Shown here piece by piece: positions 8,046-19,730 of a DNA stretch of 43,780 bases; position 1 is the first letter of the stretch, and every line of letters begins with the position of its first letter. The notes under the pieces were generated by a model that ran no database searches, was not told the DNA's origin, and saw nothing but the letters and a program-made list of their open reading frames with translations. The position numbers and the translations under genes were made by a program. The stretch is from Gloeocapsa sp. UFS-A4-WI-NPMV-4B04 (lineage in GTDB: Bacteria; Cyanobacteriota; Cyanobacteriia; Cyanobacteriales; Chroococcidiopsidaceae), in NCBI GenBank assembly GCA_019359535.1, contig JAHHHE010000018.1:1-43780 (forward strand). Reading direction: 5' to 3'.

Positions 8046-9551
8046 TTAACTACGCTGAATCTTTAGCCTTTCCGGTAAACAGTCTTGTCTTAGCAAATCT
8101 TGATAACTTTCACGCTGCAAGATCAAATTCGCTTCTCCAGCACTGACTAGCACTGCTGCTGCTCTAGGCAAGCGATTGTAGTTAGAAGCCATGCTGTAAT
8201 TGTATGCACCCGTTCCCATTACTACAAGAATATCTCCTGGTTGTGTCTTGGGTAGAGTTGCTTCTTTAATTAAAATGTCTCCAGATTCACAATGTTTTCC
8301 AGCAATTGTTACTGTCTCTGTTAGAGGTGCTGACATTTTGTTAGCCACGATCGCGCGATAAACCGATTGGTAAGTAATCGGGCGGGGATTATCAGACATA
8401 CCCCCATCTACGCTAATGTAGGTACGAATTTCTGGCACAATTTTTGATGAGCCGATCGTATAAGCAGTGACACAAGCTGATCCAATTAGCGATCGCCCTG
8501 GTTCACACAATAACTTCGGTAACGGCAAATCGTGGACTTCACAAGCATTCTTGATACCTTCACAAATAGCCTTCGCCCATTCTGCAATACTCGGCGGATC
8601 GTCGGATTCTGTATACCGCATCCCTAAACCACCACCAACATTTAATTCTGCGATCGCTAAACCATAATCACTTGCTTTACTCAACCACTGCACCATCACA
8701 GCAGCCAAATCTCGATGCGGTTGGCGTTCAAAAATCTGTGAGCCAATATGCGCGTGTAAGCCTACACAATTCAAGCTAGGTTCCTGGCTGACAAACTTAA
8801 ACACTTCATCCAGTTGATTGGGATCAAAGCCAAACTTACTATCCAGGTGTCCCGTACGGATGTATTCATGTGTGTGACACTCAATCCCTGGTGTCAGCCG
8901 CAGCATGATCCGAATAGTGAGTCGTGAAGCAGCGAGCGGCGAAGCGTCTTCGCCGATATTAGCTGCGTAGTCGTGAGTAGTGAGTCGTGGGGAGAAGGAT
9001 TCTTTATACTCCGAACTAGCTCCTCTGTCCTGTTTTGCTATGTTGACTAGGGTGTGTAGTTCTTGCCAGTTATCTACCACAATCGTGCAGCCGAAGTTAA
9101 TTGCCAAAGTTAGCTCTGCTACAGATTTGTTGTTGCCGTGCAGGTAAAGTTTATCTGCACTAACACCCGCTTGCAGGGCCGTGTACAGTTCGCCACCGGA
9201 AACTACGTCAATTCCTAAGCCTTCATCAGCCACAATTGCCGAGACAGCCAAACAACTCCATGCCTTGGAAGCGTAAAGTACCTGAGAAACACCTGGATAA
9301 TAACGTTTAAAAGCATCTCGATATTGGCGACAAGCAGTTCTGAGGGTTTCCTCATCCAAAATATACAGGGGTGAACCATACTGCTGCACTAAACTTGTGA
9401 CATCACAACCACCAATTTCTAAGCAGTCGTGACTATTAACTCGCGCAGTCAGAGGTAGAAGTTCTTGGTTAGGTGAATTTGCTGCGGTAATTGAGTCAGT
9501 TAGATACTGAGAACCAGAATTTTGAACCCCAGCAGGATGAGTCGATACCAT
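8046..9551 (-). CDS. lysA: Diaminopimelate decarboxylase
   Basis: LysA decarboxylates meso-diaminopimelate to L-lysine using pyridoxal phosphate. Visible motifs are YASKAWSC with the PLP-binding Lys, HIGSQIF, NVGGGLGMRY, EPGRSLIG, and CESGDIL followed by GTGAYNYSMASNYN at the active-site interface. I use the ATG at 9551 (MVSTHPAGVQ), because the 30 upstream codons back to 9641 would run into the divergent rimI start and do not resemble the family. The product is about 501 residues, longer than usual. The excess is partly explained by an in-frame block at about residues 175-212 encoded by repeat DNA (see the repeat entry) lying between the TIM-barrel segments LHTLVNIAK and IRIMLRLTPG. Next genes on the strand are cdaA and uppS. 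Confidence 0.93.
   Translation of the reverse strand: MVSTHPAGVQNSGSQYLTDSITAANSPNQELLPLTARVNSHDCLEIGGCDVTSLVQQYGSPLYILDEETLRTACRQYRDAFKRYYPGVSQVLYASKAWSCLAVSAIVADEGLGIDVVSGGELYTALQAGVSADKLYLHGNNKSVAELTLAINFGCTIVVDNWQELHTLVNIAKQDRGASSEYKESFSPRLTTHDYAANIGEDASPLAASRLTIRIMLRLTPGIECHTHEYIRTGHLDSKFGFDPNQLDEVFKFVSQEPSLNCVGLHAHIGSQIFERQPHRDLAAVMVQWLSKASDYGLAIAELNVGGGLGMRYTESDDPPSIAEWAKAICEGIKNACEVHDLPLPKLLCEPGRSLIGSACVTAYTIGSSKIVPEIRTYISVDGGMSDNPRPITYQSVYRAIVANKMSAPLTETVTIAGKHCESGDILIKEATLPKTQPGDILVVMGTGAYNYSMASNYNRLPRAAAVLVSAGEANLILQRESYQDLLRQDCLPERLKIQRS
8912..8990. repeat. Repeat DNA carried in frame inside lysA
   Basis: Within lysA two copies of TAGTGAGTCGTG lie at 8915-8926 and 8978-8989. Between them is a perfect 8-bp palindrome CGGCGAAG / CTTCGCCG (8937-8944 and 8948-8955) with a 3-base loop. 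These phrases are typical of noncoding cyanobacterial repeats (compare GTGAGTAGTG at 19671-19700), yet the lysA frame reads through them without a stop. The translated block (…SPRLTTHDYAANIGEDA…) separates two normally adjacent conserved LysA segments. Confidence 0.7.
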
Positions 9552-16899: not shown

Positions 16900-17273
16900 A
16901 TAAACTGTGAGTCATTCAGTTTGCTCGTTCAAACTGCGGGGGAGCAGGGGAGCATTCTTAGCAGGGGAGTAGGGGGGAAACGAATATTTCTTATCTACTT
17001 TACGCAAAATAGTAACTTTTGCAAAAATTATATCTAATAAATTTAAATCTACCTTAAAAATAATTTCTATCAGCCCTAAAGTAGAGCAAATATTATCGTT
17101 TTGCAGTTCTAATATTTAATACAAGCTTTGCAGTTAATAAAAAACTTAGTTTAATTTCTTTAATAAATAAGCATAGTTATTACTATAAAATAAATGATTT
17201 TATCCTAATATTGCTTCTTTAGACGTAAATTTTTATTTAAATAGTTAATCTATTTAATTAGTTAACAAAATAA
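16900..17273. other. A+T-rich spacer between CheR and histidine kinase genes
   Basis: The 374-base spacer begins with one copy of a dispersed repeat (16947-16968) embedded in GGGGAG runs, then becomes very A+T-rich up to the kinase start. No gene or convincing terminator is seen. The kinase may have its own promoter here. Confidence 0.5.
16947..16968 (-). repeat. Dispersed repeat copy 1 (one GCTAAGAAT unit)
   Basis: On the minus strand this reads CCCCTGCTAAGAATGCTCCC. The same flanks with one to three GCTAAGAAT units occur at 22399, 34767 and 35314 in this window. Confidence 0.7.
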
Positions 17274-19633: not shown

Positions 19634-19730
19634 AAAATTAAACATCAAGTAAAAGCATTTATCGAAAGAAGTGAGTAGTGAAAAGTGCAAAGTGAGTAGT
19701 GGGTACAAGAAAATTAAACATCAAGTAAAA
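19634..19730. repeat. 21-bp direct repeats flanking a GTGAGTAGTG patch
   Basis: The 21 bases from 19634 to 19654 (AAAATTAAACATCAAGTAAA plus A) recur exactly at 19710-19730. Between them lie two GTGAGTAGTG phrases (19671 and 19692). The layout looks like insertion or duplication of repeat DNA in the rsmH-ndhH spacer. Confidence 0.75.

Follow-up and report, generated by a model that had tools for sequence, protein, structure and literature searches.

The diaminopimelate decarboxylase gene (lysA) of Gloeocapsa sp. UFS-A4-WI-NPMV-4B04 very likely contains a small dispersed hairpin repeat, set within a heptamer tandem repeat, that inserted in frame and passed a tolerance filter acting at one loop of the enzyme. 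We also found that the length of this LysA loop differs among cyanobacteria and that other repeat families often occupy it, a point absent from the earlier note on the window, by which we mean the whole 43,780-nucleotide stretch of DNA analysed. Features of the gene and the insert are given in the table.

The lysA product matched the TIGR01048 profile over its full length (485 bits against a cutoff of 298, E = 1.2e-145), and Foldseek matched its fold to the LysA structures 5x7m (E = 2.8e-33) and 1hkw, such that the protein is a diaminopimelate decarboxylase LysA by both family and fold. Upstream of this ATG start (9551), the open reading frame remains open as far as TTG 9641. The loop was 47 residues long in the Gloeocapsa strain (G000) compared with 9 in the shortest family members (G002-G006), and the roughly 38 stop-free added residues described in the earlier note are therefore correct. 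In an AlphaFold model, the extra block was placed between the helix at residues 162-177 and the strand at residues 213-219, with a pLDDT of ~30 at residues 177-209. It is probably a disordered loop, modeled with low confidence, that joins a barrel helix to a strand, and this predicted position agrees with the surface-loop location proposed previously. Helix-to-strand loops in TIM barrels lie on the face opposite the active site.

Features of lysA and its insert in the window.
Feature	Position	Strand	Basis
lysA, diaminopimelate decarboxylase, 501 aa, ATG start at 9551	8046..9551	minus	
Extra loop block, ~38 codons (~residues 175-212)	8916..9029	minus	Loop lengths and structure model
Left flank, heptamer tandem repeat including first TAGTGAGTCGTG (8915-8926)	8914..8926	+	Genome copies have TAGTGAGTAGTG at the same place
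Small dispersed repeat core AAGCAGCGAGCGGCGAAGCGTCTTCGCCGATATTAGCTGC, two-stem hairpin	8927..8966	+	Same-genome copies and fold
Inner 8-bp stem CGGCGAAG/CTTCGCCG (8937-8944 / 8948-8955), three-base loop	8937..8955	+	Fold
Outer 5-bp stem GCAGC (8929-8933) / GCTGC (8962-8966)	8929..8966	+	Fold
Right flank, heptamer tandem repeat GTAGTCGTGAGTAGTGAGTCGTG including second exact 12-mer (8978-8989)	8967..8989	+	Genome copies
Remainder of extra block, ~DRGASSEYKESFS	8990..9029	minus	No other genomic copy found

Both exact copies of TAGTGAGTCGTG reported earlier lie within lysA, and the 8-bp palindrome reported with them is the inner stem of the hairpin. With up to two mismatches allowed, TAGTGAGTCGTG had 7 matches in the window compared with 2.0 expected, a number reached in 0 of 100 shuffles. 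The repeat-like part of the block (~8914-8989) accounts for 25 residues and forms a composite of ~76 bp with a core of ~40 bp. The other 12-13 added residues make up about a third of the block and are encoded by ~8990-9029; a same-genome search with a query extending to 9030 returned no match confined to this part, which is possibly an older, decayed insertion. On the coding strand, the insert gave an 86-nt fold more stable than those of shuffled sequences (z = -2.84, with 1 of 200 shuffles folding as well), and on the opposite strand the fold was no stronger than shuffles (z = -0.06).

Copies of the insert elsewhere in the Gloeocapsa genome were assessed from sequence searches and fetched stretches. 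Positions 8900-9030 had further copies at C66:18545 and C102:18512 (96%, ~70 bp) and at C44:61724 (83%), along with dozens of shorter matches to heptamer arrays. All three copies of the composite lie outside conserved open reading frames, which bears out its description as an intergenic-type repeat, and the four copies of the hairpin core, including that in lysA, share heptamer-type flanks (GTAGTGA-type). The heptamer-type 12-mer TAGTGAGTMGTG occurred 79+75 times genome-wide compared with 2+1 for a backward control, and AGTGAGT/GTAGTGA arrays were present at dozens of places. We scanned 49 other places with the repeat or heptamer for open reading frames of about 90-100 aa or more and found no clear interior insertion in a conserved gene among them, leaving lysA as the only such case among the places examined. 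Overlaps at these places involved the edges of open reading frames (L002, L010, L025, L188, L200), small open reading frames or one formed by the array itself (L022, L029), and a lone chance 12-mer (L181). The 12-mer within an open reading frame at C29:67526 was judged a chance match, because array and core were both absent around it. Two further repeats lie between open reading frames in the window, one of ~40 bp at 16936-16978, for which over 20 partial copies exist at other genomic places, and one of heptamer type at 19665-19717 with several other genomic copies.

We then compared the loop across 98 LysA rows from 18 family genomes and 80 named loci, two of which duplicate family genomes. 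Loop length, measured from fixed anchors, ranged from 9 to 60 residues, the minimal 9-residue loop was present in only 5 of the 18 family genomes, and the reading frame was open in all 98 genes. In an alignment of 460 core columns, insertions of at least 5 residues inside the enzyme core were restricted to this helix-to-strand loop (51 of 98 LysA, up to 49 residues), and insertions of at least 10 residues were found there in 17 of 98; the other place with insertions of at least 5 residues was near the N-terminus, where they reached 7. None of the 97 other lysA genes carried the residues of the Gloeocapsa insert, which goes against the refuting case of many relatives sharing them with no sign of a repeat. 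No same-genus LysA was found, the incomplete genome G018 having yielded no lysA, and the precise empty site of the insert was therefore not observed. Near-empty sites were apparent in other close pairs, with loops of 60 residues in Brasilonema bromeliae vs. 15 in CT11, and of 43 residues in Nostoc NMS2 vs. 12 in NMS7.

Sorted by motif, the loop fillings fell into about nine types among the 98 LysA, an approximate count because the motif rules were written after reading the loops. Besides AGTGAGT with the hairpin core in the Gloeocapsa window, these were ACAAGGG (G010, L071, L076), ACGGAGAC (L066, L069), CAGTCCC (L115), GGAGCAGGG (G007, L070, L075), ATTGGT/CCCATT (G011-G016, L095), the GTAGAGAC palindrome (11 rows), a large composite (L094), and long loops matching none of the motifs (L063, L065, L078, L121). 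L091 was assigned to the palindrome from its sequence, the motif rule having missed it. Close relatives may differ in type, as the G010 loop is an ACAAGGG composite and those of G008 and G009 hold the palindrome. Further own-genome copies were found for most filling types. The loop DNA of G010 (>20 copies, mostly 94-99%), L094, L070 and L115 is multicopy in its own genome, that of L066, L069 and L078 also has own-genome copies (weaker for L069 and L078), and 10-96 copies of the palindrome GTAGAGACGTTN6AACGTCTCTAC are present per genome for L067, L068, L090, L097, L101, L091, L127, G008 and G009. Own-genome copies were shown neither for the ATTGGT type nor for the loops of L063, L065 and L121, and the long loops of these last three count against the insertion account.

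Many of the fillings are tandem heptamers that expand readily (CAGTCCC, ACAAGGG, ACGGAGA), as expected if a short seed in the loop had grown slowly in place by slippage and unequal recombination, mobility having played little or no part. That tandem heptamers may also grow in this manner counts against an insertion account. However, growth in place fails for the inserts of Gloeocapsa, G010, L094 and L066, because these hold non-tandem cores with copies elsewhere in the genome, and we consider it unlikely. Neither a target-site duplication nor a transposase was identified for the lysA insert, which presumably arrived by mobility rather than by local expansion or recombination.

Repeats were also found inside other proteins. 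Based on mechanical calls of open reading frames of at least 150 aa, 8 of 20 examined copies of a 70-bp dispersed repeat, itself set in a heptamer-type array, lay inside such frames in G010 (L141, L146, L150, L154, L155, L157, L158, L159) and are read in frame in several conserved proteins, with hosts that include a MobA-like protein, a histidine phosphatase, the TrmD tail, two sensor kinases, a CheA-like protein, PBP1C and PurD. In G009, where the palindrome has 96 copies, the same type of call placed 4 of 20 examined palindromes inside open reading frames (L163, L164, L167, L180), in frame within MiaA, a SelD-like protein, a magnesium chelatase ChlD-like protein and a ChlH-like protein. Several of the G010 and G009 proteins have Pfam domains that run on past the repeat in both directions. 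Among PurD rows with an extractable open reading frame, a variable loop had 0-45 extra residues with tandem repeats in several genomes, and the PetH control varied in length at one linker only, apart from gaps of 1-2 residues. A second variable PurD loop, in the C domain (VFHAGTK...LVTDGGRVLG; L231-L248, G000:C81:18960-20273), is occupied by tandem repeats such as GACTCCC and CTAGCCCC in several genomes, G000 among them.

On a LysA tree constructed without the loop, there were at least 25 changes of filling and at least 16 changes between long and short loops, minimum counts that pool gain and loss across forks of which several are weakly supported. Such turnover, with about nine repeat types in one loop, could arise if the repeats favored some DNA feature of the lysA loop, so that recurrence would reflect biased insertion and not selection. 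No obvious sequence is common to the families, however, and the in-frame repeats at their own sites in the PurD loop, MobA, MiaA and ChlH agree with a tolerance filter that needs no shared target in the DNA, which leaves target preference a slim chance.

Under the tolerance filter that we favor, such repeats, of a kind that occupies the DNA between genes in many cyanobacteria, would land or expand across the whole genome, and most landings within genes would destroy the host gene and disappear. Survivors would be insertions whose overall length preserves the frame, whose strand and phase contain no stop, and that sit in a flexible loop at a distance from the active site and core. The LysA helix-to-strand loop preceding the RIMLRLTPGIECHTH strand is probably such a site, and its permissiveness would be the reason that unrelated repeats gathered there in many lineages. 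The array is free of stops in every frame when read as ACTCACT and has stops in all three when read as AGTGAGT. Two of the six frames of the lysA insert are open and lysA uses one of them, consistent with the stop-free phase suggested in the earlier note.

Relative to the genomic consensus, the lysA copy has A-to-C changes at equivalent positions 8923, 8972 and 8986, which convert L to R, Y to D and L to R, each residue becoming charged. These changes could indicate selection for solubility and, together with a coding-strand hairpin stronger than shuffles, might be taken as a sign that the extra loop is retained for a function such as regulation, partner binding or an effect of the RNA hairpin on lysA mRNA. 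Alternatively, the changes may reflect variation at the source, because the same variant heptamer occurs elsewhere in the genome (L018). A retained function is highly unlikely given that the inserted sequence is unconserved between lineages, many relatives have no insert at all, and the loop is predicted to be disordered. We infer that lysA is expressed and that the enzyme retains activity, with translation of the insert most likely yielding a disordered loop of nearly neutral effect. Misjoining of the repeat into lysA, for which the draft state of the genome (5.15 Mb, 225 contigs, 84% complete) would be the argument, is hardly credible, as common reads exceed the 86-bp repeat in length, the reading frame is unbroken to either side, and the near-complete assemblies G010 and G015 have the same kind of event in the same loop.

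If about nine repeat types have entered the loop of one essential enzyme independently, that loop would constitute a natural recording site, in which near-empty and filled alleles of close relatives can date repeat mobility, and it would allow a test of how much disordered sequence can be accommodated in an enzyme loop. Unusual inserts in enzymes of cyanobacteria can also be repeat DNA and not functional domains. With somewhat less than even confidence, we propose that cyanobacteria have in their heptamer and small dispersed repeats a source of new protein sequence that is general and still active, that these repeats have repeatedly colonized a small number of permissive loops (LysA, PurD and others) throughout the phylum, and that loop contents record which families moved and when. 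We found no reports of repeats inside LysA or other proteins of cyanobacteria in the open-licence literature searched.

The small dispersed repeats (SDRs) of cyanobacteria, reportedly described by Elhai et al. in 2008, are 21-27 nt long, and their mobility has long been argued and is hard to demonstrate. The four-copy core is a short dispersed hairpin of the kind often found in heptamer arrays, a resemblance judged by description; at ~40 bp it is longer than SDRs. Cyanobacteria also have short tandemly repeated repetitive (STRR) heptamers (PMC2670836). The AGTGAGT/GTAGTGA arrays of G000 have the STRR arrangement, with head-to-tail runs of a 7-bp unit at numerous sites in the genome. Overall, the lysA insert is similar to both classes in being a short hairpin repeat within 7-bp tandem repeats that is dispersed, mostly intergenic and cyanobacterial, and differs in that the lysA copy lies inside a conserved enzyme gene and is read in frame.

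To our knowledge, most known cases of in-frame repeat insertion come from Rickettsia and similar genomes, where Rickettsia palindromic elements (RPEs) are said to have been originally described by Ogata et al. in 2000. RPEs are palindromes of 105-146 bp (PMC2229807) that occur between genes and also in frame within conserved protein genes, where they are presumed to be tolerated (PMC2229807, PMC3733652). The lysA repeat is likewise in frame in a conserved gene with copies between genes. However, it combines a heptamer array with a hairpin and falls short of the RPE size range, and many unrelated repeat families share the one LysA loop. By analogy, the insert appears to work like an RPE and is not a member of that group. 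Intragenic GTAG/CGTC REPs are short palindromic repeats inside open reading frames, argued to be neutral in linkers or loops, and GTAG-type REPs have been reported from cyanobacteria (PMC3733652). The lysA insert may differ from these in that its GTAG lies within the heptamer adjoining the hairpin, neither stem starts with GTAG, and no GTAG-tagged REP stem is present at its start. The palindrome that fills the same loop in other strains might be a GTAG/CGTC REP.
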